DNA from: Ptychodera flava | Taxonomy: Eukaryota > Hemichordata > Enteropneusta > Ptychoderidae | NCBI RefSeq assembly: GCF_041260155.1 | Contig: NW_027248277.1 | Span: 2,454,501-2,518,500, forward strand | Direction: 5' to 3' | DNA length: 64,000 nt | In this document: in pieces, positions 11,010 to 55,900 of the stretch | Layout of the letters: each line of letters begins with the position of its first letter | Position numbering within the stretch: position 1 is the stretch's first letter | Translations under genes and position numbers: made by a program | The notes under the pieces: model-generated | Databases searched by the model: none | The model's input: only the letters and a program-made list of their open reading frames with translations | What the model was told of the DNA's origin: nothing

Positions 11010-12520
11010 AGTCCCCGCGGACGAAGTCCGGCGGGGACTTATAGATTGGGTCCCGTCTGTGCGTCCGTCATCAACAGTTTCTCAGACACTGCTAAACCAA
11101 TTTCGTTTAAACTTGGCACAAAGGCATAACACTATGACCTACAGATGCATGTCGATTTATTTTGTGATACGATCCAAATGGCCGCGAGGCGGCCATTTTG
11201 TTGCGATTTTTCATGTCTTTGGACCATAACTCAGACATCCTTGAGCAGATTCTGTTCAAACTTGGCAAAAAGGCATAACACTATGGCTTTCATATCCATG
11301 TCAAATTATTTTGTGATACGATCCAATATGGCCGCGAGACGGCCATTTTGTTGCAATTTTTCATGTCTTTGGACCATAACTCAGACATCCTTGAACAGAT
11401 TCTGTTCAAACTTGGCACAAAGGCATAACACTATGGCCTACATGTGCATGTCAAATTATTTTGCGATACGATCCAATATGGCTGCAAGGCGGCCATTTTG
11501 TTTGCCATTTTTCGTGTCTTTGAACCATAACTCAAACATCCTTGAACCGATTCTGTTCAAACTTGGCACAAAGGCATAACACTATGGCCTACAAACGCAT
11601 GTCGAATTATATTGCGATACTATCCAATATGGGCGTGAGGCGGCCATTTTGTTGCGATTTTTCATGTCTTTGGACCATAACTCAAACATCCTTGAACCGA
11701 TTCTGTTCAAACTTGGCACAAAGGCATAACACTATGGCCTACAAACGCATGTTGAATTATATTGCGATACTATCCAATATGGGCGTGAGGCAGCCATTTT
11801 GTTGCGATTTTTCATGTCTTTGGACCATAACTCAGACATCCTTGAACAGATTCTGTTCAAACTTGGCACAAAGGCATAACACTATGGCCTACATGTGCAT
11901 GTCATATTATTTTGCGATACGATCCAATATGGCTGCAAGGCAGCCATTTTGTTTGCCATTTTTCATGTCTTTGAACCATAAATCTAACATCCTTGAACCG
12001 ATTCTGTTCAAATTTGGCACAAAAGCAAAACATTATGCCCTTCATATGAACACCAATTTTTTCATGATATGATCCAATATGGCCGACAGGCGGCCATTTT
12101 TTTGCGATTTTTTCATGTCTTTGAACCATATCTCAAACATCCTTGAACCGATTTTGTTCAACTAAACGTGATACGCAGATAAAATACTATGGCTGCATTC
12201 TTGTGCACATTAATTTGTTTCATTATATGATCCAAAGGGCTGATTACAACAACATACCCGATCCCATTACCATTTTGAAAATTCCACCAAACCATGTGTA
12301 TAGTATGTGCCGTCATGACACAAGAGGCAGTGAGGGCATCGTTATGTGTGATGTAATCAAAAGTTCCTTCATGGTCATTACCAGCAGAGATGAGTCATTT
12401 ATTGAACGTTCCTCAGATTACTTTATTATGCAGGTCACAGGCCTGATGCACCCGTTGCATCAATGTCATTCCACAGCTACTAGACACCAAAGATTATAAC
12501 AAAATGGACAAGCGGGGACT
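11010..12520. mobile_element. AGTCCCC-ended element with internal 150-bp tandem units
   Basis: It opens with a terminal palindrome (AGTCCCCGCGGAC, GAA, then the inverse GTCCGGCGGGGACT) followed by 'tatagattgggtc', and closes with GCGGGGACT. The ends therefore form a 9-bp inverted repeat. Two more copies of the same head lie at 23,401 and 23,802, so this is a dispersed family. The interior is mostly a 150-bp tandem repeat; no transposase is visible. Confidence 0.6.
11100..12175. repeat. About seven copies of a 150-bp tandem unit
   Basis: The anchor phrase '(g/t)gaccataactca(g/a)acatcc' recurs at about 11,220, 11,371, 11,521, 11,672, 11,822, 11,973 and 12,123. The next phrase 'ttctgttcaaacttggcac' follows each time. 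Because 150 is a multiple of three, long repetitive open frames arise; these are not genes. Confidence 0.85.
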
Positions 12521-12561: not shown

Positions 12562-13350
12562 GTACTTTGTTTGTTTGTGAAATTTGTTACTCTCCTACCA
12601 GAAAAAAGGACTGTTGTATGCCAAGGGAAATATGTTCAATCAGATATCATTCCTTATAAGGTGTAGTTTGTTTGTTGTGACATTGTTTACTCTCCTACCA
12701 GAAAAAAGGACTGTTTGTATGCCAAGGGAAATATGTTCAATCAGATATCATTCCTTATAAGGTGTAGTTTGTTTGTTTGTGACATTGTTTACTCTCCTAC
12801 CAGAAAAAAGGACTGTTTGTATGCCAAGGGAAATATGTTCAATCAGATATCATTCCTTATAAGGTGTAGTTTGTTTGTTTGTGACATTGTTTACTCTCCT
12901 ACCAGAAAAAAGGACTGTTTGTATGCCAAGGGAAATATGTTCAATCAGATATCATTCCTTATAAGGTGTAGTTTGTTTGTTTGTGGCATTGTTTACTCTC
13001 CTACCAGAAAAAAGGACTGTTTGTATGCCAAGGGAAATATGTTCAATCAGATATCATTCCTTATAAGGTGTAGTTTGTTTGTTTGTGACATGTTTACTCT
13101 CCTACCAGAAAAAAGGACTGTTGTATGCCAAGGGAAATATGTTCAATCAGATATCATTCCTTATAAGGTGTAGTTTGTTTGTTTGTGGCATTGTTTACTC
13201 TCCTAAAAAAAGGACTGTTTGTATGCCAAGGGAAATATGTTCAATCAGATATCATTCCTTATAAGGTGTAGTTTGTTTGTTTGTGAAATTGTTTACTCTC
13301 CTTCCAGAAAAAAGGATTGTTTGTATGCCAAGGGAAATATGTTCAATCAG
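12562..13350. repeat. 102-bp tandem satellite, about eight copies
   Basis: The unit runs from 'gtttgtttgtgacattgttt' through 'actctcctaccagaaaaaa' and 'ggactgtttgtatgcc' to 'ttccttataaggtgtagt'. Copies differ by only a few bases, so the array is recent or homogenised. The period equals 34 codons, which explains the long repetitive frames. It lies just 5' of the first MCC exon seen here. Confidence 0.9.
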
Positions 13351-13702
13351 AATTACAGTGAAATCAGCAAAATTAACAATTTTTCTTGAAAGTGAACATT
13401 GTTGACTGACTTTGATGATGAGTCCTTATTAAGGGCAATTTTTGGATAAAATTGTTGTTTTCATATGTTTTGAAAATAACATTATGTAATTGTTAGAGTT
13501 GTTCATTAAATGAATTATCTCAATGCTTCAACAGTCTAGAATATAATCTGTCGTTTTATGGCACTTAATTGTTCACAGAATCACACAAAACTCTTTGAAA
13601 GTTTGTTGTCTAACAAAGAGTTTAGGGTCAGTTCATAGAACTCTACAAGTTGTATTAAACATTTCTCAATATAGAACTATTGTTTGTTTTTCTCTCCTGT
13701 AG

Positions 13703-28610: not shown

Positions 28611-29827
28611 CTACTTGTTGTGTATTCTGGTGTGTTTTAAAAGATTTTCCCTCAGTTTACATCGATATCCACATACATTACACTTCCAAGGTTTTTCATC
28701 ACTGTGTACAGACTTAATGTGTGCAGTTAGTGTAGTTTTTAGCTTAAAAACACGTGGGCAAAGATCGCATTTGATTGTTGGTTTACTATGAGTCGAGGCA
28801 TGCAATCGTAAATTGGCACCTTTCTTAAACTGGCGTCCACAAATATCACACAGATATTCAGGCTTAGTGCAGTCCCTATGACGGTGCTTGCGATATTCAG
28901 ATTTGATGTAGAAAACCTTCTTGCATATCTTACAAGAATATTTACTTGAAAGCAGACCATGGGTTTCTAAATGGGCTTTCCATCCACCCATATGGTGAAA
29001 TTTCTTGTTACAAAAAGAGCATTTAAATCCTGGCTCAACGTGGGCGGTCCGTAGATGGTTTGCCATCTTTGCCCGCGTGTCAAATTTTTCCTCACAGACT
29101 GTACAGACAGCGGACACTTCACTGTGTAATTCCTTTTCATGAGTTGATCTGATTCCCTCAGTTGTAAACTTCATGTCACAATATCTTTCTTTCACTGTGG
29201 ATCGTTTATGTTTGGTTAGAGCACTACGATAGGAAAAGACACGCTTACACACATCACATTCAAATACATCATTGGAATGTTTTGACAGTATATGGTTTGA
29301 TCTTGTTGCGCAATTAATAAATGTTCGATCACAATAGTTGCATGGAAACACTGGTATCTCTTCTGCATGAGAATCAACCATATGCTTTTGCCAGTCCTTA
29401 AGAAGAAATTCCAATCCACAATACTTACATTTCTGTCTGACACAAACGCCCAATGACATATGTAAACTTAACCCTTGCTGTTTTTTATAACCCTTACCAC
29501 ATTTCTCACAAGTGTATGGTTTATCATCAATCATAGCTTTCCGTATTCTCTCTTTGTGAATTTCCAGCCCTTCATCTGTCATCATTAGCTTTCCCTCACG
29601 TTCATGTTTCTTTCTCTGAAACTTTGGTTTTTCATTTCCATTTTTTGACGATCCATTGCAGCTCTCGACCAAAGTATTTATTTGATTTGTATCAGCATCG
29701 CTGGAGTTGTCTTCATTATTTGTTTCATCTATTGTTATGTCACCATTTTTGTCGTAACTTCTTCCAAAGGCTGATGGTGAAGCATCAACGGAAGAGCTTA
29801 CCATCTCTCGAATATTTTGACGGAGAG
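28611..29827 (-). CDS. ZNF-A exon 3: C2H2 finger array
   Basis: The acceptor is tttctttcag; the stop is TAG after HTRIHNK. It starts with a linker rich in Asp and Asn, then a basic stretch, then 11 finger positions. The last six fingers are regular (for example YLCDICGRQF...H...H). The junction of fingers 4 and 5 reads HKRSTVKERYCD, where the paralogues have a complete His pair and a CRYC start. Confidence 0.9.
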
Positions 29828-32552
29828 CTGAAAGAAATCACATGCAATACAAGGTTAATGTAGAACTAGAGGTCAAATTTTTCTGTCAGTCCAAAACTAC
29901 CAAATTTTGATAAATATCATTATTATTTTTGTGATTTATTAATTGATTAAATGTTTGACATATTGCAACGAGCTAACACAAACTGTGGTTGAATGGTGAG
30001 CTTTGCTATAATTCAACACCATTAATGTTTTCTTAGCGGTATGTTTGTATAATCAACTTTATCTGAGTGAGTATGTATGTATTCATTCCCCATTAACAGC
30101 AAGCTAATGTTTAGAAGACACTAAATGCTAAGATAAGTGACATAAAACATATCAGTAGCAAGTATACAACAACACACTGGAGGATGTCAATGACGAACAA
30201 ACTAACCTATTGGATAAATTTGATTACTATTCTCCTGATTTTTCAAAGTTCCTATACACTGTGTTTCTTCAATCTCCGTCTCTCTTTGCTGATTGTCTTC
30301 ACATGATCCACTTTCTCTCACAGTTTCAGTACATTCCTCATCAAATTTCAGTACATCATTGTCTGGTTCACCAGTATTTCTCATGTCATCCATAACTTCA
30401 GCTTCAGTTAGTTTGTTGCCTATTTCAGCACTTTCCTCCGCAATGGCCAGCTCTCCTGATCTGCTCTTATCAACAGCTATATTGATGACATCATTATGCA
30501 AATGAGTAGGTGCATTTGCAAGGTCGAACGACGAAGTATATTCCTCTAAGAATACATCTTCCTTCTTTACAAGATTGTTAAGATTTTTACTTTCCTCATA
30601 AGTTTCCTCTGATGGTACACCCATGATATGTCCATCAGTACTATGGCCAGTAGCAGTAGGACTCAGTCCAACATTAACATCACCTGGTTTTTCTTTCAGT
30701 CCAGTTGTCAAAAATTCTCTGACAAAGTCTTGACTTCCAATATACTGAGATGACAGCCCATCTTCAGAGACCATGACAAACACTTTGCAAGCAAACTTCT
30801 CCAGGAAATCTTTACACTAAAAGGATGTAATGAAAATAGAAATATCACATGCTAGTAGTAGTAGTGGTACAAATGTACACATCTGTGTTCAATGCAAATA
30901 TGAACCTACACTAAAACAATCTCATCTCTTTCATGTTAGAAACTTTGTATATTATATGAATTGTTATTGGAGAGATATATATAAGAAAGTTTCCAAGAAA
31001 TTGAAAGATTAACTAAAATGCGTCAGAAACATAGTTGACATTCCACTGAGATGTGTGGGGGCTCAAGAAATGTATAGCTGACAATTATTCCGCTGAGATG
31101 TACGGGGCCAGGAACAAACTACTGCAAAGTGTGCTACTTACATGTTTCTACGATGAATTCTGTAGGATTATTCTAACATAATGACAACAGTCAGATTGTG
31201 GCACTATTAAAAATGTATGAACGGATGATTTTGTTGTTTTAAAAATTAAAAACGGAGGAGGGCGGAGTTACGGAGGAAAACAGAAAAAACTCAAGAAAAT
31301 CACTAGGAGACAAGGATGACACATTTGGCCCCTGAGTGTTTGAGTTGAACAATGGCGCGACTTCAATATAAGCTTGCCCACTTTTCATTAAATTTGCATG
31401 AAAATGTGCATCATGGTGGGAAAATACAATACAATATAAAAAGATACGTGCAAGTGATGGGAAACTTGCATTTTTCATCGGTGACACTGGCCATCATGTT
31501 TCAATCACACACGACAAACTTTTCATACAACGAAACTGCTGTTGTACAGGAGCTGGAGGTTTTGCCATCCAACCCACACCATCCAGGCAAAGCAGTCCTA
31601 CTGAATACTGTGACTGCCCATAGCTGCCTGAGGACTGTCCGAGGAAAAAGTAGGCCAAATTTCGGCCATTTTAACATAAAGTCAAGGTAGGTTCAACCTA
31701 CATATTATGCCGGGCTAACCAAAAAATATCATTGATTTGACGTGCACTTGATGTTTTCTCTAGCGCTTTTGGAACCTAGAACACTGGATATCGACTACAA
31801 AGATGTCCCAAGCTTGCTTGTGAGATCATACTATTCAATGCAAGGGGTGTTCGGCTTTCAAGCTGCACGAGTGCAGCTAGGATATCGTACCTACTCTTGC
31901 ACTAAATGTTACGATTGACAGGAGTAGTGGTACAAATGTACACATCTGTGACCAATGCAAATATGAAGCTGCACTAAAACAATTGTTTTGCGACGTCCTT
32001 CAAGTCCGTCGTCTTTTGAGTTTCAAAACATTCGGAGAAAACATCAGGTTAAGGTCAAAACAATGGTAGTTTTGGCTTTGTGTTAAAATGGGCAAAATTT
32101 GGCCAACTTTTTACTCGGGCAGGCCGCAGTCCTCGGGCAGTAATTTATTAGGACCCAATGTAGTACTAGGCAAACAATCTAAAGTTTACAAATATCACTA
32201 ACATAATTGGTAACAACACTTGGATCGCGATGGAAATGCACGCAACATGTGCCCCGACCCACAAACGATATTAAATTAATGACGTTACATCAGCAGGCCC
32301 ACTAGCCCTGCGTACCGTGCTGTGTGTTTCGGGCGTTACACGGCCCCACCACATGTGCCGTGTAACGCCCGAAACACACAGCACGGTACGCAGGGCTACA
32401 GGCCTACATGAATAAAACAGCACGTCATAGAGCCGCACATCGCTTTAATAGCACCAGTTAACAGTTGCACGAATGAACAGACTTACTTCCATAAGCAGTC
32501 GATTTTTCAGCGTGCTTGTAAAACAAGCTGTTTGTGATGATATTGGATCCAT
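28611..32552 (-). CDS. ZNF-A: 630-residue C2H2 zinc-finger protein, three exons, intact
   Basis: Exons 32487-32552, 30207-30816 and 28611-29827 join in phase (0, then 1) into one open frame of 630 codons. Residues 1-80 form an unrecognised module (STLKNR...CKDFLEKFACKVFVMV...QYIGSQDFVREF). Residues 80-330 are acidic and Ser/Thr-rich. From about 332 to the end lie 11 C2H2-type finger positions with short linkers. Fingers 1 and 8 end in Cys instead of the last His. Fingers 4 and 5 are damaged: compared with B-D, about four residues are missing at their junction, removing one His and one Cys. It is probably a nuclear DNA-binding regulator. No KRAB, SCAN, BTB or ZAD domain is seen. First of four tandem paralogues and the only complete frame of the three fully contained in the window. 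Confidence 0.88.
30207..30816 (-). CDS. ZNF-A exon 2: N-terminal module and acidic region
   Basis: The acceptor is cttttag before TGT-AAA-GAT; the donor is ATAG|gttagt, phase 1. CKDFLEKFACKVFVMV followed by SEDGLSSQYIGSQDFVREF is almost identical in B and C and is not a domain I can name. The remainder is acidic and poorly conserved except for a final GSCEE...KLK..E.....PI stretch. Confidence 0.82.
32303..32398. mobile_element. 96-bp hairpin element with 9-bp target duplication
   Basis: It starts TAGCCCTGCGTACCGTGCTG and returns as its exact inverse around a loop of about ten bases. CAGGCC(C/T)AC flanks both sides (32294-32302 and 32399-32407, one mismatch). It lies just 3' of ZNF-A exon 1 in intron 1. 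A truncated relative is at 45,745. Confidence 0.75.
32487..32552 (-). CDS. ZNF-A exon 1 (22 codons)
   Basis: ATG GAT CCA opens the frame; the donor is GAA|gtaagt, phase 0. The STLKNR motif before the donor is shared with exon 1 of B and C, while the N-terminal residues differ. The start is chosen because the same ATG-GAT start is kept in A, B, C and the inverted relic at 48,589. Confidence 0.8.
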
Positions 32553-35746: not shown

Positions 35747-36975
35747 CTACCTGCTGTGTATTCTGGTGTGTTTAAATAGATTTTCCCTCAGTTTACATCG
35801 ATATCCACATACATCACATTGCCAGGGTTTTTCATCACTATGTACAGACTTAACATGTGAAGTTAGTGTACTTTTTAGCCTAAAAGCACGTGGGCAAAGA
35901 TCGCATTTGAGTGTTGGTTCACTATGAGTTAAGGCATGCAATCGTAAATTAGTACTCCTCTTAAACCGGCGTCCACAAATATCACACAGATATTCAGACT
36001 TAATGCAGTCCCTAATACAATGATTGCGATATTCAGATCTCACATGGAAAACTTTCTTGCATACCTTGCAAGTGTATTCCCTGGAAAGTTCGCCATGACT
36101 TTCTAAATGGGTTTTCAAATATGCCTTACTACAAAATTTCTTGTCGCAATAGGAACAACTAAATTTGTGCTCTGAGTGAACAATCTTCAAATGGTTTAAC
36201 ATATGTGTTCGAGTATCAAACGTTTCACCACACTCTGTACAGACAGCTGAAACTTTACTGTGTGAATGCTTTTCATGACCTGTTCTGATCCCTTGTTTTG
36301 TAAACCTGAGGTCACAATATCTACACTTGAACTTTCTTTCAATGTGGGTTTTTTTATGATTATTTAACGTAATGCGATTGGAAAAGACATGTTTGCACAC
36401 GTCACATTCAAATGCACCATTTGAGTGTTTAAGGAATTTGTGACCTGATCTTGATGAGCGACTCATGAATATTCGATCACAATACCTGCATGGAAACACT
36501 GGTATCTGTTCTGCATGAGAATCAACCATGTGATTTTGCCAATCCTTCAGTAGAAAGTCTATTCCGCAATACTTACATTTCTGTCTGGCACAAATGCCCA
36601 ATGACAGATGTAAACTCAATCCTTCCCCTGTTTTATAACCCTTACCACATTTCTCACAATAATAAGATTTATCACCAATCATGGCTTTTCGTATTCTCTC
36701 TTTGTGAGTTTCTAACTCTTTGTCTGTCATGGGCGGCTTTTTGGCGCGCTCATATTTCTTTCTCACATGCATAGGTTTTTCAATTCCACTCACTGAGGAC
36801 ACATTGCAACTTGTGGCCAAAGTATTCGTTTGATTAGTGTCATCACTTATGGAGTTGTCGTCATCACTCGTTTCATCATTTCCTGTGTCTCTGTTTCCAT
36901 GGTAACTAGATTCTAAGTTTGACGTTGATGCATCGGGAGAGCAGCTTTCATTCTCGCCACCATTCTGAAAAGCAG
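35747..36975 (-). CDS. ZNF-B exon 3: 11-finger array, uninterrupted
   Basis: The acceptor is ttctctcag; the first two bases complete an Ala codon. An acidic linker leads to a KKPPMTDKELETHKERIRKA stretch that is nearly invariant in B, C and D. The 11 finger positions follow. The sequence differs from D and C by scattered substitutions only. Confidence 0.9.
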
Positions 36976-39900
36976 CTGAGAGAAAATCACAGAGAATGAA
37001 TGGTTAATGCACAACTGGTCTGAAAATATGCCGTCTACTCATAGCAAAATGACAGTTTTGTATTTGTCAATTCCAGTATTATTAAAGTAGTTCATCCCAA
37101 TGTATTAATCTTTACGGCCCTGATACCGGTTTTGCAGACCGAGGTTGTACGGCGGAAGGGCCCGAGCGTGCGAGGGCCCGTACGCCGTACGACCGAGGTC
37201 CGCAAAACCCGTATCTGGGACGTAAAGGTTTTATCATATACCTTATTGAACGGTTGTGATATGTTTAAGTATTTATCAATAAAGTTATGGGCGTATATTA
37301 AAAAAAACATGAGCCACGCAATTTTGCGGATTAATATGTACGATGTTTTCATTTGTTCTGTTGTGGAACGCGTCACGAGCTTGTTCTATGCGAACGCCAA
37401 TGTCACTACAAAATGAGCACAGATGAGTAGTTGATCCTGCTCGTTAAAATACACTTTCTCAGCAAAACATTGAAAGGAGACTATCAAGCACTTGTTTTAA
37501 ACCAATTTTGATCGGAATAAGATTCGAATTGTCTACAATTTGCTTCAAAACTATGAGCGAAGCGCCGAGAAACGGGTTCGAATCTTGCACTGACGTGCTT
37601 TCGAATGGAATGTACGTGGATAGCAACACGCATAGCAATGACAACGAAATAGTTCGAAAATGCGTGCACACTACCTCATTTGGGCAAAGTGTGCCTGGGC
37701 GTGATACGGCAACTTATTACACACCTGTAAGAGCGCCTTTTCCCATAGGTTTACATGGGTACGTGAATCTAGGTATATGATAAGACATATTATAGCATAT
37801 GGACATAACAGATGTTGGTAGAAGATCTTTTTGGCCTTGTTTACAGACAGAACCAATGAAGAAAAAACAAAAGGATTCAAGGCATTAATAATTTGTTTAT
37901 GCCTTGCAATATCAATGTGCAGCATCTCAAAGGCTTTCAGCTTATTGATTGGCAGAATAATCTTGACATTAATAAATCTCTTGAAAATAGACAACTATCT
38001 ACACCATAACCTTAGCCTAAGACATTTTAAGTAGCAGTGAATAATTACAATCTGCCAATCAGCTATATCCAGAATTATATTGACATTAATAAATGGGCCG
38101 CGTCAAGCAAAAACCTACCTGATGCTCAAAATTATCAATTTTTGTTTTCTAGCATTTTTTATGGTTCTCTATCTCTAGATTATGTCACTGAAGTTTAAGG
38201 TCCGAACCGCGATTAGAAGTATGATTTTAGCTCATTTGAATATAACCCCTGACCTTAGATTTGCATACTGGTTTTCCTTTGCTCTTCATTCACACATCAT
38301 CAAATTACTGTGTACCTCTGCATTGTTTTCTTCCATAGAAAAGCACGCTGATGAAAAGTGTTGTTTTGCCAACATGATATGAGATAAAATGTTTCATTTA
38401 AGCTGTGTAGATATCTTATTAACATGATTTTCAGGTTTACAAACAAATTTATGCATGTTCACTTTCACTTCAATGTTCAATGTTCAATTGTTCAGTGCCC
38501 ACTCTCACTGCAAAATAATACTTCAAACGACAAACATGTACTGGTACATAAATGAGAAATACTCAATCTTTTTTTATTCACTTTTTGAAGTGTGGTGTAT
38601 ACACTTTACATACAAACTGTACAAAAGTCAGCCCGAAAAGGTGGCCTTACATGCTGTTGAATAGTATCATGTAGTTGTCTATGGCGGGCATCTGACAAAC
38701 CTCCACATTCAAGTTTCTCAGGAAAGCTTCCTTGTGGTGGGGGCCAAGCTACACAATTTCTAACCAATGCTATCTCAGTTTCAATTTCATCATGGACTTC
38801 TTTTACATAAACTTTACCTGGATTATCTTTATTAAACCTAAAATGGTGATATTTCCTGATGCCTTTCAGTGGTTTGAGATATGCAGATAGATATGTATCC
38901 CACTGATACCATTGCCATGTGTGATCAGACTCTGAGTCTTGTTGCAGGACATGACTTTTATTAATATTGGCACTCTTGTTGACAAGAGTAGCTAACTGAT
39001 CCACTGTATCAACATCACTACGTCTATATAATTGACGAACTTTACCAAAGCATGCATCACAGATACATTTTGTGTGCCCAGGTTCCATGAAATGAATTTG
39101 AATTTCATCATGCAGACCAGTACTGGTTCTCCATGACATATAGTGCAGAACAGATTTGTTTTTATTTTGACCCCCACAGTTGTCAGCATGAAAGGAACAT
39201 TGTTTTTCACCCAAACTGTGATCTGAAAGATGGTGATGCAATATGCTAATTACATTATTGGGTCCTGCACTTTTCTTCCCATCCTGACCAATGCTATCAG
39301 CTTCAGTGAAAAGATAATTAATTTGTTCTTTACAAACTTCATTACAAACACCAAAACAGAAAACTTTCATTGGGCTAAGGAAGTACAAAGGACCAACTTG
39401 TCTTGACTGATGGGGAAGTGAAAAATGTTGTGCATAATCAAAACTATAATGAACAGAAAACAAATCTTGTGAACAAGGAGTATGAATACCAGCATCTTAT
39501 TTTGTTGTGGTAATGATTCATACTCTTCAAATGACTTCTGAACACAATTCTTATAAAATTCTCTCCTTTTCTGTGCTTTCATGACATGCTCATTATATTG
39601 CGATGTAAACAATAATTTATCATCTTCTGAGGAGGCAAACATAATTTTGTTTCGAAACTCCTCACATTTCACAACAAACATCAGTTTTGGGAGAAATGGT
39701 TTGAATGTGAGGAACACAGTCTTTCCATACGTTCTTAAAGTTGTGAGTCCAACATGTGTCAGAGGTGGCTGTGTCTGCTCACATGACTCTACATAAGCTG
39801 AGTAGACTCTCTCCTTGGTGATACTGGATGGTAAGTAGACTGGTGGAGTGCCTTCCCTTCCACGTGGTACAGCTGGCATAGGCAAACCAAACTCATTTGA

Positions 39901-42900
39901 GTACTCCATTATGAACTGCACAACGTGCTGGATGATCTATGGTGACAAGTAAAAGAATATGAAAACATCTTCAGTTATAATTGGTATTTTTTGTACGTTT
40001 GTAAAACCGTTGTCTGCTTTTATGGTGCCAGTATTGTATATCTGTCTTCAAAAAATGATCACAAAACAAGAAAAAAATTCAACACAAATCACTTGATTTT
40101 AAACACAAATAAAGAACAGGTTTGTGGATGACCTGGTATCTATCAACCTATTGGTGAAAACACTGCCAGAAATCATGCTGTAGTCAGTTCTTAAGGGGGG
40201 CGGTACTGTATTTTTAACCTATGATGAATTTTTCATTATATCTGTATGTTAATTGCAAGTTCTTGTTCTACTCCCAAAGGCATGTCTAAACACCCACTAT
40301 TTAGCTTGTCAACACAAAGTCTGTACTTGTAACATCCATTATTATTGTTTACATTTGAACTCTAGTTTGTACCGGGATTACCCTGTCAACAATGACACTG
40401 CAGTTTACACATGCACGATCTTAGGCTGAGTTTAATAACAAGCTAAATACTGTATATCTCAACATGTTTTTGGGAGTCAGCACAACAAGAACTAGTTGAC
40501 CTTGAAAAACAAAAGAAGTGAAAAAATCATGAAATGTTAAAGCCCCAGTGCTGCTAACTTTCGATGGTTTTTTTCATTATTTTTATTTTATAAATCAATT
40601 GCAACTTCCTATTATACTCCCCAAATACTCCCCAAAGAATGTTGAAACACCCACTATTTAGCTTGTCAACTTAGCGTCTATGTATAAAATGCATGAATAT
40701 TGTTTACATTTGAATTCTAGTCCAGACCAGAAGTCAGTTTTCAACAATAAATATGCACTTCACAACCATGGGGACTGAGTTGACAAGCTGGATACTGTGT
40801 ATATCAACATTCTTTGGGAGAAGAACAAGGAATTATGGTTCACATTCACAATAAAAATGGTGAATTATCATCAAAAGTTAACAGCACTTGGGCTTTAACT
40901 TAAAGATACTGACTCTTTTAAATACCAAAATCAAGAAATTTAAAACAAGATGAGATAGAAGTCTAAAAAAACAAAACTTTTTTCCTGTCAAATCAGGCCA
41001 AATATGTGAAATGGGAAATTTGTGGTTTTACTATTTATGATAGATCTGGCATGACAACAACAGATAAACCCAGTTGGGAAAAGGGCTATCACACACGTCG
41101 TCATGTCAGAGAAACCGACTAATGAAAATTATTCCCCAGATATGTCTGCGAGAGATGAGTTTGGAAAATTGAGATCAAAATTGAACTTTGGTTATGTTAT
41201 TGCAAATTACTCTCTACTAAACATTAATGATTTTACTCAGTCTTTTCTGCTAAAGATAGGGGACGCTGGTAATTAATTTCGCAACTCTGGTAACATTTCT
41301 GCTGTCCAAATTTGGAAACCTTGATATACCAAAGGAAACCATAGTAAGATGACTGTGAATTCCGGTAACATTTACCTACTTACTGCCCTTAACTAAAACT
41401 CTGAATTTACAAACGGTTTGTGAATTGACCACGATGCACTTAAGATATTTGCTTACCTCAAATGAAAAAGCATTATGAGCCTTCTTTCCTTTCAAACCAT
41501 GTTCTCTAGGTGCTATGCCATTGACCTTGTAATGGGCTTTCAGAGATTTGTAACTCCAAACACCTGAGAGGGAGATAAAATTATATTAGAGAAAGATATC
41601 ACATTTCATGTCGGGTTATTAGTTATTGTTTAATTTCAAAGTCAACTGAAAACATAAGGTTCAATCTAGTTCTAATTTGAAGGATCTGTGGTCCTAAAAA
41701 GAAATTTGAACACTGTGGGCAGTGTGGATGCCTATCATGTATGGTGTCGCTTTGATGACAAAACAGGCCAGTTATATTGCCTTGCCGGTGACGCTATGCA
41801 TCGACGTTGACTGTTATTGATTGAAATGACGAATTAAAACTGCGTCGACGCATGGAAAACTATCACTCATTCACTGTCAGTCTGAGAGTAAATTGAAAGT
41901 CAGGAAGGTGTCATAGCTGCAATAATTGTTCAGCTCCGGCCCGTGGGCCGGGGCTGAATCACCAGCACAGCAAACAAAGGCCCGTGAGCTACAATTATTG
42001 GAGCCAGAACTTAGAAGATGAGACTGACTTTACACGCCATGACGCGCGCGGCTGTCTGGGTCAATGACCTTGAACTTCAATTCTTTGGAATCCATGAGAA
42101 TATACCGGTACTCGTGTACGGCAACTCTGTTTGATGATCTGATTTAAATGACAGAAAGGCAAACACAATTCGATCATGTTCTATCGATATCTGATGTCAC
42201 AAAATCAGTACTTCGATTAAGTCGTTTTGGGGCAGAGATGTACCTGTAAAACTTAGTTGTTTTTAACATAGACAAGGAGAAACTTGCATGTTTGTAAATA
42301 CTCACTGATGTCATGAATAAATCGCCATGCCTTCTCGCAAATTTCGTATCCGTCAAATTCGTATCTGAATCTCTGACATTCTCGTATCTTTCCTCTCCTT
42401 GTGTCACCTTTCTTTTCCATCTGTTCCATCTTCGCAAGCAGGAGTATGTCTTTCTCCGTCTTTGTGAATTCGGCTAAATTAAGACGATACTGAAATACCC
42501 GATCTGCGTTGAGTTGACTGTAACATCGATTGGAACAGCCGCAACCAACTTGAAATTCTGCAGTAACTTCAGACGCATTTCCATCAGTCTCACGACTGGA
42601 TTCGGTAGAAGCAGTAAAATTTGCAACCAAATCCTGCGACGATGTTTGGCATTCATCATCCGAATCGGATTCAGAGTTCTCTGAGTCGCTACCGTTGCTG
42701 CTTTCGTCGCTTGCAAGTTGGCGTTGTTGGTGTTCACTTTCGATGTCATCAAGGAAATCCCGATGTCTATCGGACATTAATTGCCCTAGATCTTCGTCGA
42801 ATTGAAGGTCAACGGGAACTCTTGAACACATTTTACTGTGAGAAATGCCGATGATTTTAGAGAGGAAAGCAACGTACGACACGGCAGGTTGCAGACTGAT

Positions 42901-45900
42901 GACGGCTCGACAAGAGCTATGGGCGGGAAACTCTTTCATATGCAAATATTTTTGGCGGTGATTGATTACACCCTAAACTTTACGTTTCAAAATGTAGAAC
43001 GAAAATGAGAGAAACGAGTATCTACATTTCACCGCACCTTGGTACTATCCACTTTTGATATTTCTTACTGTAAATGTTTTTAATTCGAAGAGGATTTAAA
43101 GGAAAGAAACGAGCCCATGATTTTATCGCCGACAGGTCTGTGGGCGCGCAAACGTAAACTCTCATACAAAGTATCAATTTTTAGAACTGATATTGTGCAA
43201 CATTGTATCCATTACCATCCGGTAGGTTTTTGCTTGACGCGGCCCAAATATCTACTAAATAACCAATGGCATTATAACAATAGCTTTAGGCTACCCTAAG
43301 ACTTTTTTAAGTAGCCGTGAATAATTACAATCTGCCAATCAGCTATATCCAAAATTATATTGACATTAATAAATATTTACTAAATAACCAATGGCCTTAT
43401 AACAATAGCTTTACACTAAGACTTTCAAAGTAGCAATGAATAATTACAATCTGCCAATCAGCTATATCAAGTATTATATTGACATTAATAAATATCTACT
43501 GAATAACCAATGGCCTTAATAATAGCTTTACACTAAGACTCTTTAAGTAGCAATGAATAATTACAATCTACCGATAGTTATAATTACGATCTACTGATAG
43601 CTACCGGTATATCCTTCCAAGCTGCTGCACATTGTTCCATATAAGATGATGAGCTCAAGATTGTTATAGTGTTGTGCAAACCTCTGCATATCTCATTGTG
43701 AGTTGATATAACATTTGTCCAATAAAAATGAACACTGCTGTTTTAAGTGGTTTGATTGAAAAAAGTATTGTAATTTCCATCATTTCACACAAAACCTGAA
43801 AAGATGCCAATTAACTCAATAAAACACTTTGCTTGGCCGCAAGCTGTGGTTTTCAGCTGTGCAATTGCGATGTGCACGAAATTCCATGATGGATGGAAAT
43901 GATAAATAAACTAACCTATAGGACTATTTTGTTGACAGCTCTCCTGACTTTTCAACTTTCCCAAAAACTCTGCCCCTTCCAACTCCATCTGGTTTTGCAG
44001 AGTTTCTTCACATGATCCAATTTCTGTATAGGTTTGGTTAGTATCTGGATCACAAGTTTTCCTGTCATTGTCTGATCCATTTATATCTCCTATGCCATCA
44101 TTCCATTTAGCTACTTGTGTATCTATGTTTGATTGTTGTCGATTGACATTGATATCTTCTTCCACCATGACACTGTCTCCTGATTGGCTATAATTGTCAG
44201 CCATATTGACATCATTCTGCAAATCAATAGTTTCCCTTGTGATATTGGTGAAGGAATTCTGCTTCAACAGTACACCTTCATTCTTTGTAAAATGTCACGA
44301 TTTCTATTGTCCCTGTTATAAGTATCCGTCGATGGTTCAACTATCGTATGTGTACCGTTACTTTAAAAGGAGCTGTAGGACACAGTCCGACATTCACATC
44401 ACATGGTTTTACTTTCAGTCCAGTTGTGACAAATTCTCTGACAAAGTCTTGACTTCCAATATACTGAGATGACAGCCCATCTTCAGAGACAATGACAAAG
44501 ACTTTGCAAGCAAACTTCTCCAGTAAATCTTTACACTAAAGAAAAACGACAGTAGATAAGATTGGATGGTTGATTTAAAGAGAATAGTTGTGGTATAAAT
44601 GTACACATCATTGTCAAATGCAAGTTTGAAGTTCTATCAAAACAATTCTCTACTCCTTGATTTCAGAAAGCTTTATATATTATCTGCATTGTCATTGGGA
44701 TGACATCAAGAAAGTTTCAAGAAATTCACATATTGACTGTGATGGTTGAACAACCAAAGATTAGACAGTCGGTAGACATTGATACTGAGATGTACAGGGC
44801 CTCAAACTTACTGCTACCCTACGTACAATGTCACGCATGGCTTAATGATTAATTCTGTTGAAATATTTTAAAATAATGGCCATGGTCAGATTGAAGCATT
44901 CAAAGAGGAGTTTTCAAGTATCATGCCCCGAGCTGCGCTGTTTACTGCATCATTACATTTTGTGGCTATTGAGGGGTGTGTAGGGCTGCCACGTGACCAC
45001 AACTGACTGGAAGTTAACTTCCGTAGTCATGGTAATGAGTTTCATTTTAATAGTCATTTGAAATTCCTATTGTTCATTCATATGATGCAGACGTGTTATG
45101 CTTCTCTCAGTTTCTCAAAAGTGTTTGTACTGAGACAAGTTCAATGAAGCCTAAGTTCAACAACGTATGGGTAATGAATCTAACCTTATATCTGGAGGTG
45201 GATTTTTTCCGTATATATATTTTAAACTTTTCTCAAAATCACCCAACCAATTAATTTAACCACCCAAATATTCGGCGTTATTCGAAATCAGAAATCATTA
45301 ACAAATGATTCTGTTTCAACATGGCTTTTCTAAGTCACCGCAGGGGTATGGATGGCAGTCCCTCAGACCACTCTGCCGCCCAAAATATAATGGTACAGTG
45401 CGCGGGATAGCTTTGTGTCACCTAGCTATGTGTCAGTGGTTGTGGAGTTTTTAGACGGAATTGCCCCTTCACAGTGCTGGAGTTGAAAAATCTGCTCGAC
45501 CTAATTTGCATTGGAATGCGCATCATGGTGGCGAAACAAATAGGCACATTATACAGATATGCGATAGCGTACTCGACCCCGGAGTCCTTTTCGTCGGGGA
45601 GCCAGGAACCATCCTCATCATGTTATGTACAACAAACTTCAATATTTAATAAAACCAACAGGTTTGCAAATGTCCTTAAAAGAACACTTAATAACACAAG
45701 GGCAGTGATCGAACTGTGCACTTTATAATAGCTGCACTGTTGTATAGCCCTGAGTACCGTGCTGTGTGTTCCGGGCGTTACACGGCCCCCACCACATGTG
45801 GTAGGGGCCGTGTTCGAGGTTTTGTTTGGGTAGGTTTGTCAGACCATGGAGCTTCCCAAATGTAGCTCCATGGTCAGACCAGGTTTGCCGACCAACCCGT

Positions 45901-52997: not shown

Positions 52998-55900
52998 CTA
53001 CCTGCTGTGTATTCTTGTGTGTTAAAAGATTCTTTTTCAGTTTACATCGATATCCACACACATCACATTGCCAGGGTTTTTCATCACTATGTACAGACTT
53101 AACATGTACAGTTAGTGTAGTTTTTAGCCTAAAGACACGTGGCAAAGATCGCATTTGAGTGTTGGTTCACTATGAGTTAAGGCATGCAATCGTAAATTAG
53201 TACTCCTCTTAAACCGGCGTCCACAAATATCACAAAGATATTCAGGCTTAGTGCAGTCCCTCATACAATGATTGCGATATTCAGATCTGACATAGAAAAC
53301 TTTCTTGCATATCTTGCAAATGTATTCCCTGGAAAGTTCGCCATGACTTTCTAAATGGGTTTTCAAATCTGTCTTACTATAAAATTTCTTGTCGCAATAG
53401 GAACATCTAAATTTGTGCTCTGAGTGAACAATCTTCAAATGGTTTGACATATGTGTTCGTGTATCAAACGTTTCGCCACACTCTGTACAGACAGCTGAAA
53501 CTTTACTGTGTGAATGCTTTTCATGATTTGATTTGATCCCTTGTTTTGTAAACCTGAGGTCACAATATCTACACTTGAACTTTCTTTCCATGTGGGTGTT
53601 TTTGTGATTATTTAACGCAATGCGATTGGAAAAGACATGCTTGCACACGTCACATTCAAATACACCATTTGAGTGTTTAAGGAATTTGTGACTAGATCTT
53701 GATGAGCAACTTATGAATATTCGATCACAATACCTGCATGGAAACACTGGTATCTGTTCTGCATGTGAATCAACCATGTGATTTTGCCAATCTTTCAGTA
53801 GAAAGTCTATTCCACAATACTTACATTTCTGTCTGGCACAAATGCCCAATGACATATGTAAACTCAATCCTTCCTCTGCTTTATAACCCTTACCACATTT
53901 CTCACAATAATAAGATTTATCACCAATCATGGCTTTTCGTATTCTCTCTTTGTGGGTTTCTAACTCTTTGTCTGTCATGGGCGGCTTTTTGGCGCGCCCA
54001 TATTTCTTTCTCACACGCATAGGTTTTTCAATTCCACTGACTGAGGACACATTGCAACTTGTGGCCAAAGTATTCATTTGATTAGTGTCATCACTTATGG
54101 AGTTGTCGTCATCACTCGTTTCATCATTTCCTGTGTCTCTGTTTAAATGGTAACTAGATTCTAAGTTTGACGTTGATGCATCGGGAGAGCAGCTTTCATT
54201 CTCGCCACCATTCTGAAGAGCAGCTGAGAGAAAATCACAGAGAATGAATGGTTAATGCACAACTGGTCTGAAAATATGCCGTCTACTCATAGCAAAATGA
54301 CAGTTTTGTATTTGTCAATTCCAGTATTATTAAAGTAGTTCATCCCAATGTATTAATCTTTACGGCCCTGATACGGGTTTTGAGGACCTCAGTCGTATGG
54401 CGTACAGGCCCTCGCACGCTCGGGCCCTTTCGCCATACGACCTTGGGCCGCAAAACCCGTATCAGGGCCGTTAAGGTTTTATCATATACCTTATGGAATG
54501 ATAAATATGTAGTTTACATAATATTCAACATTGTTTAGGAGATAAAAATGCGTGCGATATCAAATATTTATCGCCATTTGTGTCTGCTTTTTATAAACAC
54601 GATGGCCGCTTCCCGTCGCGGATTGACATACATAATGACGTCATTTGTTTACCTGCAGAATGCTAGAACGCGCAAAGCAACATCCGTACTATTACGTGAC
54701 CAACAGAGATCCAGGCTGAAATTGAGGTGTAAGTAGGACAAAAGCGTGATGTCAGTTTCTTGTAATTTATACTGAACAGGCACGCACTTAGTATACACAG
54801 GATTTCACTAGAATTTAGAAATAAAAGCCGATGTCACCTGCGCGGCTCCACTGTCGCCATGCGCAATTACGATCTGAGCGAGCAGACGTTTTCCAAATCT
54901 TGCGCTGGCTTTGTGTACGAATGGAACGTTTGCGGATAGCAACGCGCGTAGTAACCAGAATTGAGATAGTTAAATGCACGCGATTGCCCATATTTGGGCA
55001 CCGGGCCGGGGCATGATACGTAAAAAAATGCACGGATCTGAGGGCGCTTTCTCCCATAGCTTTACACAGGCATGTGAATAATGTAGGTATATAATAATAT
55101 CTACTAAATAACCAATGGCCTTATACAAATAGCTTTACCCTAAGACTTTTTAAGTAGCAGTGAATAATTACAATCTGCCAATCAGCTATATCCAGAATTA
55201 TATTGACATTAATAAATATCTACTAAATAACCTATGGCCTTATAACAATAGCTTTACCCTAAGACTTTTTAAGTAGAAGTAAATAATTATGATAGCTATA
55301 TTCTTCAAAACTGCTGCACATTGTTCCATATAAGATGACGAGCTTAAGATACTTAGAGTGAGGTGCAAACCTCTGCATATCTCATTGTGAGTTGATATAA
55401 CGATTGCCAAATAAAGATGAACACTGCTGTTATAACTGGTTTGATTGAAAAAAGTATTGTAATTTCCATCATTTCACACAAAACCTGAAAAGATGCCAAT
55501 TAACTCAATAAAATACTTTGCTTGGCTCCAAGCTGTGGCTTTCCGCTGTGCAAATTGCGATGTGCACGAAATTCCATGAAGGATGGAAATGATAAATAAA
55601 CTAACCTATAGGACTATTTTGTTGACAGCTCTCCTCACTTTTCAACTTTCCCCAAAACTCTGCCCCTTCCAACTCCATCTTGTTTTGCAGAGTTTCTTCA
55701 CATGATCCAATTTCTGTATAGGTTTGGTTAGTATCTGGATCACAAGTTTTCCTGTCATTGTCTGATCCATTTATATCTCCTATGCCATCATTCCATTTAG
55801 CTACTTGTGTATCCATGTTTGATTGTTGTCGATTGATATTGATACCTTCTTCCACCATAACACTGTCTGCTGATTGGCTGTTATTGTCAGCCATATTGAC

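Follow-up and report, generated by a model that had tools for sequence, protein, structure and literature searches.

The DNA analysed here, called the window throughout, is a stretch of 64,000 nucleotides from the acorn worm Ptychodera flava (contig NW_027248277.1, positions 2,454,501 to 2,518,500). A preliminary description of the window, made from its letters alone, had proposed a complete transposon with a spliced gene of the DUF7869 type, a widespread domain recorded without a function. The element and its target were delimited as follows.

38095..43245, unstranded: whole transposon, 5151 bp, with inverted ends, a target-site duplication and an empty paralogous site; structure complete, coding region broken
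38091..38094, unstranded: left target-site duplication, AAAT, present as a single AAAT at the empty site at 55203
43246..43249, unstranded: right target-site duplication, AAAT
38095..38124, plus strand: left terminal inverted repeat, beginning GGGCCGCGTCAAGCAAAAACCTACC
43216..43245, minus strand: right terminal inverted repeat, identical to the left at 29 of 30 bases
55203..55232, plus strand: empty site, a paralogous copy of the target without interruption, lying outside the element and matching the joined junction at 30 of 30 bases
43246..43569, unstranded: rest of the array of about 119-bp tandem units that the element entered

Ends of the element and the empty target site

The two terminal inverted repeats differ at a single position, as first described, and their first 25 bp are the same; arms of 36 nt (92%) are obtained when 6 flank bases are taken in. 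The borders read AAAT-GGGCC...GGCCC-AAAT, with AAAT on both sides. Matching ends were found in 0 of 100 shuffled sequences. Within the window, the 25-bp end sequence had no further copy at up to 3 mismatches, and the motif GGGN12AAAACCTACC occurred solely at the two ends of the element.

A search of both strands of the window for the joined 30-bp junction, TTGACATTAATAAATATCTACTAAATAACC, at up to 4 mismatches found three places. The match was exact at 55203-55232, where the preliminary description had placed an uninterrupted target (about 55,215), and had one mismatch at 43360 and 43479, in units beside the element. When the flanks were joined minus one AAAT, they aligned with the 55-kb copy at 91% identity over 167 bp, gapless at the junction. 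The similarity extends rightwards for more than 800 bp (89%) and leftwards stops with the array. The stretch at 37600-37950, left of the array, gave no alignment at the 55-kb copy, and the homology is therefore that of the array and the right flank. The array lies among duplicated C2H2 zinc-finger genes, where duplicated blocks are spaced about 17.25 kb apart left of the element versus about 11.69 kb right of it. This 5.56-kb difference is mostly the element (5155 bp including the duplication), the remainder being other differences between the copies. Thus, the 4-bp AAAT duplication at the window is proved by the empty paralogous site. With its ends, duplication and empty site, the transposon is structurally complete, as had been claimed; its coding region is not intact.

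The DUF7869 gene of the window copy

Two P. flava proteins, P0001 and P0002, are the nearest to the query, both with 95% identity across 80% of its length. The gene was delimited as follows, with the positions of the aspartate codons placed through the match of P0001 residues 227-520 to 39490-38609.

42306..42831, minus strand: exon 1 of the putative transposase gene, ATG at 42831; tblastn of P0002, 98%
41457..41563, minus strand: exon 2; junctions consistent with the P0001, P0002 and P0004 sequences
38606..39936, minus strand: exon 3 to the stop codon; frame broken near 39490, with a further out-of-frame stretch upstream when set against the P. flava relatives
38804..39268, minus strand: Pfam DUF7869 match (PF25273), E 3.3e-22
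39437..39439, minus strand: first putative catalytic Asp codon; P0001 D244, on strand b1; conserved in 99.1% of 226 aligned sequences
39182..39184, minus strand: second putative catalytic Asp codon; P0001 D329 in HADN, where strand 323-329 ends; 99.5% of 222
39056..39058, minus strand: third putative catalytic Asp codon; P0001 D371, which follows GHT at the beginning of helix 369-382; 98.7% of 225

Both introns are bounded by GT and AG, and P0001 and P0002 run uninterrupted across both exon junctions. The profile search placed the gene in DUF7869, the type to which it had been assigned from its motifs, with 79.5 bits for the match in exon 3 versus a curated cut-off of 26. The proposed three-exon gene was upheld in its exons, introns and motifs (HYSFDYAQ, ADNCGGQNKN and HTKCICDACFG); exon 3, however, is not open. 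It consists of two parts in different frames, and a stretch farther upstream leaves the frame relative to P0001 and P0002 and then comes back. The break may reflect either decay or an assembly error. Because exon 3 is frame-broken, the window copy is unable to encode an intact protein.

No second long open frame lies between the element ends in the list of open reading frames (ORFs) of the window, and no Pfam family besides DUF7869 exceeded its cut-off in the four pieces scanned. None of the 477 high-scoring tblastn segment pairs from 282 DUF7869 proteins (E<=1e-4) fell in the window outside the element. A search of the NCBIfam profiles gave no match near any cut-off, a sequence search of the PDB with the C-terminal piece gave 0 matches, and Rfam at gathering cut-offs gave no match in the window.

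Intron 2 of the gene contains a 354-bp stretch (40541-40894) that is bounded by inverted ends (AGCCC[A/C]AGTGCTG...), is flanked on each side by TTAA and looks like a TTAA-targeting miniature inverted-repeat transposable element.

Predicted fold and catalytic triad

The preliminary description had suggested a comparison of the predicted structure with transposases of the RNase-H fold. The structure model was confident (pLDDT 86) and contained an RNase-H-like core, and 49 of the 50 structural neighbours listed, many of them redundant, were transposases or integrases. Against a viral fold library, 0 of the 249 matches with E<=10 reached E<=0.001.

Three aspartates (P0001 D244, D329 and D371), separated by 84 and 41 residues, were conserved in 98.7-99.5% of the 222-226 sequences aligned at these positions. 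The underlying alignment held 228 sequences, namely the long-enough members of the 282 proteins and eight ORFs from the prokaryote loci described below, proteins of fewer than 480 residues being left out. In the model, the first aspartate lies on b1, the second where the fourth main strand ends and the third in the helix after it, which are the usual positions in RNase-H folds. The predicted structure thus combines the RNase-H-like fold and the acidic triad that characterize DDE/D transposases, and in all probability DUF7869 is a transposase of the DDD kind.

Bacterial DUF7869 genes and their ends

Prokaryote genomes were scanned with alignment A1, which yielded 10 loci whose proteins show 29-42% identity; genome searches added L019, L021 and L028. 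The 13 distinct loci are therefore L001-L010 and these three. Not counted were L011-L018 and L020, which are repeats of loci in this set, L022, which scored under the cut-off, and L023-L027, which are matches to flanks.

Inverted ends were present on both sides of the gene at seven of the 13 loci (L001, 2339 bp; L002, 2116 bp; L004, 2108 bp; L006, 2056 bp; L008, 2067 bp; L010, 2044 bp; L021, 2715 bp), and a right end alone at three (L003, L007 and L009). At L019, an end-like motif was seen at the left, the right side being masked, and no inverted ends were seen around the gene at L005 or L028. The preliminary description had named DUF7869 genes consistently lacking such repeats as the outcome that would speak against a mobile element; these loci show the contrary. 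Open frames of 635-668 codons fill most of the 2.06-2.72 kb of six of the seven two-ended elements, while the frame of L010 is interrupted (310).

The end motif GGG-12N-AAAACCTACC was common to the window, L002, L007 and the right end of L008. It begins with GG instead of GGG in L003, L009 and the left end of L008; its second half is altered in L001, L004, L006 and L021, and L010 keeps just GGG and AAAA. Scoring the whole 25-base terminus was also tried and was abandoned, as the window's ends did not stand out. Recognisable ends occur in the acorn worm, Desulfobacterales and other Deltaproteobacteria, Thiomargarita and a Legionellales metagenome-assembled genome (MAG); a Verrucomicrobia MAG shows a single end.

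The source of L002 is the isolate Desulfocicer vacuolatum DSM 3385, in which it lies on a 147.8-kb contig. Its ends are perfect (30 of 30 bases; 43-nt arms including 4 flank bases). The origin from an isolate, this contig and the intronless 657-aa gene speak against eukaryotic contamination.

All eight genomes behind nine of the ten scanned loci (L007 not among the nine, no genome from L003) were positive for PF25273, as were 1 of 395, 2 of 42, 5 of 291, 7 of 389, 1 of 245, 1 of 197 and 1 of 143 genomes in further sets, which overlap and each include at least one known positive. Among control genomes, 0 of 14 were positive. Each positive genome had one match above the cut-off, so that mobility could not be proved from several copies in one genome. 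Viral contigs gave 37 stretches with the pattern and 0 relatives, and the D. vacuolatum protein matched nothing among plasmids and phages. Among 120 relatives listed, of 551, 59 lay on contigs of 1990-2400 bp, near the size of the element; this was discarded as evidence, since short metagenome contigs are common anyway.

Two of these loci showed further features. In L003 (9400-11784, a Desulfobacteraceae MAG), the DUF7869 gene overlaps the end of a neighbouring ORF, which we take to be CheD-like; the right end is present, and the left end was not found, as if deleted. L028, from a genome of the same order as genome G002, has a 731-codon open frame that scored highest for PF25273 in its search, and no recognisable inverted ends within the 2922 bases covered.

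Target preference and duplication

Flanks were compared with borders set at the first G, giving 19 flanks from the window and the bacteria (two each from eight elements, one each from three). The pattern AWWT was found in 17 of 19 flanks compared with 161 of 3362 background positions (4.8%; binomial p ~6e-21), or in 13 of 15 when identical flank pairs were counted once (p ~7e-16); it was first noticed in these loci and later met in print, and the p-values are thus not those of a pattern fixed beforehand.

Identical 4-bp flanks bound four of the eight two-ended elements (the window, AAAT; L004, AATT; L008, AAAT; L010, ATTT), and the flanks differ in L001, L002, L006 and L021. Given AWWT, this number of identical pairs is not above chance (p 0.12; 0.26 without the window, the bacteria having 3 of 7). 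The 4-bp duplication is therefore proved for the window and not for the bacteria, and identical bacterial flanks were rejected as proof of it because the AWWT preference alone suffices to produce them.

The left flank of L002 cuts an integrase-type ORF whose continuation is absent from the right flank, so that the flanks seem rearranged. A search for paralogues of these flanks in the same genome found just the left flank itself and, for the right, itself and three weak partial matches. With the L010 element and one ATTT removed, the Thiomargarita nelsonii sequence reads as one unbroken frame of 131 residues that contains a PqqD domain (E 6e-11). The match to this domain begins past the junction, and what spans the site is the continuity of the frame rather than the domain.

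Relatives in acorn worms and other eukaryotes

The last 294 residues of P0001 are 100% identical to the window. The genes of P0001 and P0002 lie on contigs of 45.6 and 44.0 Mb; either could be the window's own locus in another assembly, and because these contigs differ, at least one of the two represents another locus. In all, P. flava has seven DUF7869 proteins on seven contigs differing in size. A relative from Glandiceps talaboti is 70% identical over 66%. In a tree of 49 proteins, six P. flava proteins and that of Glandiceps group together (support 1.0) in a clade of several lineages, and the window's kind pairs with Glandiceps. DUF7869 proteins also occur in mycorrhizal fungi, among them Rhizophagus irregularis, and in bivalves; no ends were observed in these hosts. 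Full-length members are mostly about 580-690 aa.

Members of the family are entered in databases as uncharacterized proteins. Four DUF7869-type proteins (P0063, P0200, P0268 and P0271), from a bacterial MAG and mycorrhizal fungi, are recorded as 'chaperonin' or 'Chaperonin: PROVISIONAL', an apparent misannotation.

Other repeats in the window

The duplicated C2H2 zinc-finger genes lie at 28611-29837, 35747-37003 and 53124-54251 (minus strand). Blocks of repeats are shared by the regions around 34-36, 51-53 and 62-63 kb, and likewise by those around 43.6-46.5 and 55.3-58.2 kb. A perfect 42-bp inverted repeat with a 12-bp loop occupies 32303-32398; a copy of its arm at 45745-45786 (95%) is possibly the end of another mobile family. 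Tandem arrays are present at 11105-12161 (150-bp units, 89% matches) and 12562-13351 (102-bp units, 96%).

Interpretation and comparison with known systems

Because of the predicted fold, the triad, the conserved ends and the window's empty site, we read the element as a DNA transposon of the cut-and-paste type with the DUF7869 gene as its transposase (probability about 0.92); that DUF7869 is a transposase of some kind, as the preliminary description had thought likely, is close to certain, and the inverted ends and AWWT flanks of the bacterial genes agree with it. Extrapolating from fold, triad, ends and flanks, the N-terminal helical part of the enzyme would bind the terminal repeat, and the three aspartates would hold two metal ions and cut at the GGG/CCC ends. 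The cut ends would then be joined to an AWWT target opened with a 4-nt stagger, and repair of the gaps would produce the 4-bp duplication. Cut-and-paste rather than copy-out movement is assumed in this scheme. The window copy, with its ends intact and its gene broken, might still move with the protein of a sister copy.

Other explanations would deny the DUF7869 protein this role. It might be a passenger, or a domesticated nuclease, in transposons moved by another enzyme; excerpts of PMC3627910 describe eukaryotic Sola2 elements that can carry the passenger protein Fanzor1, and the frame of the window copy is broken. However, the window's ends enclose no rival long frame or above-cut-off Pfam family, the DUF7869 frame occupies most of nearly all two-ended bacterial elements, and the predicted fold is that of the DDE recombinases, which leaves this explanation very improbable. 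Scarcely credible is that the inverted ends and AAAT arose by chance around an ordinary host gene: the region is indeed repeat-rich, a tandem array within duplicated zinc-finger genes, but the shuffles yielded no such ends, the target stands uninterrupted at 55203, and related ends bound the bacterial relatives.

As to its family, the element is probably best filed in the Sola superfamily, Sola2 group, a placement set by printed descriptions. The abstract of Bao et al. 2009 is said to name Sola in bacteria, protists, plants and metazoans. The available portions of Bao and Jurka 2013 (PMC3627910) give Sola2 elements a Sola2 transposase, terminal inverted repeats and AT-rich 4-bp 'AWWT' duplications (ATAT, AAAT, ATTT), with examples having an 888-aa transposase and repeats of 12-21 bp. 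Sola is characterized in part of PMC10741241 by a DDD transposase, a 4-bp duplication and hosts among bacteria and metazoans. The elements described here share with these descriptions the predicted DDD triad, the AWWT target, the 4-bp duplication (at the window), the inverted ends and a host range from bacteria to animals. The Sola-like placement, which had originally been drawn from the length of the duplication alone, is now backed by target, triad and bacterial hosts.

It is conceivable, though unlikely, that the DUF7869 elements constitute a separate DDD superfamily of bacteria, animals and probably fungi that resembles Sola2 merely in target choice. The comparison with Sola2 was by printed description, and the printed sizes (excerpts of PMC3627910) differ from those found here, about 580-690 aa and ends of about 30-40 bp or more. 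The end motif and AWWT are still recognisable between some bacteria and the animal, even at 29-42% protein identity. Against such a separation, flanks, triad and hosts fit printed Sola and Sola2, and both DUF7869 proteins and Sola2 occur in R. irregularis, whose curated transposable element library has Sola-2 families (excerpt of PMC11075540), and in bivalves (excerpt of PMC10294476).

Other known systems were compared with the element. Mos1/mariner (ITm; PDB 3hos and 4u7b) had 7% identity in the fold match and, according to portions of PMC10741241 and PMC10045372, duplicates TA (2 bp), unlike the 4-bp AWWT here. With IS481EU/IS3EU/Ginger, the element shares 4-bp duplications, which occur in IS481EU, and prokaryote-eukaryote links; the IS481EU families, however, have TGT...ACA ends in the portion of PMC10045372 consulted. 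This integrase (rve) group was rejected, since the DUF7869 protein had no rve match at E<=1 and the ends here are GGG...CCC. TnsB, IstA and retroviral integrases likewise differ, the DUF7869 protein having no Pfam rve match. They are DDE rather than DDD enzymes. The piggyBac and Kolobok groups were rejected because the window target is AAAT, not TTAA, and no piggyBac Pfam match was found. TTAA is the target of Kolobok. It is also that of piggyBac (excerpt of PMC7351741).

In the open-access literature searched, DUF7869 was unnamed, which says little on Repbase or subscription journals; no open-access paper on this domain was found, by title, under GQNKN, PF25273 or IPR057191, and a search of that literature for new prokaryote-eukaryote superfamilies found nothing related. 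Transposon curators likely know these elements as Sola2 and protein databases as DUF7869. The window gene belongs to Pfam DUF7869 (PF25273), a family listed without function; with the present reading, this widespread domain would gain one, along with precisely defined DNA ends and a triad of putative catalytic residues, and the DUF7869 genes in gene counts of acorn worms, bivalves and mycorrhizal fungi are probably transposons. Compact bacterial members such as that of D. vacuolatum DSM 3385 are convenient material for initial biochemistry on this family, and the bacterial members open a route to asking whether the DUF7869 of Pfam is the Sola2 of Repbase.

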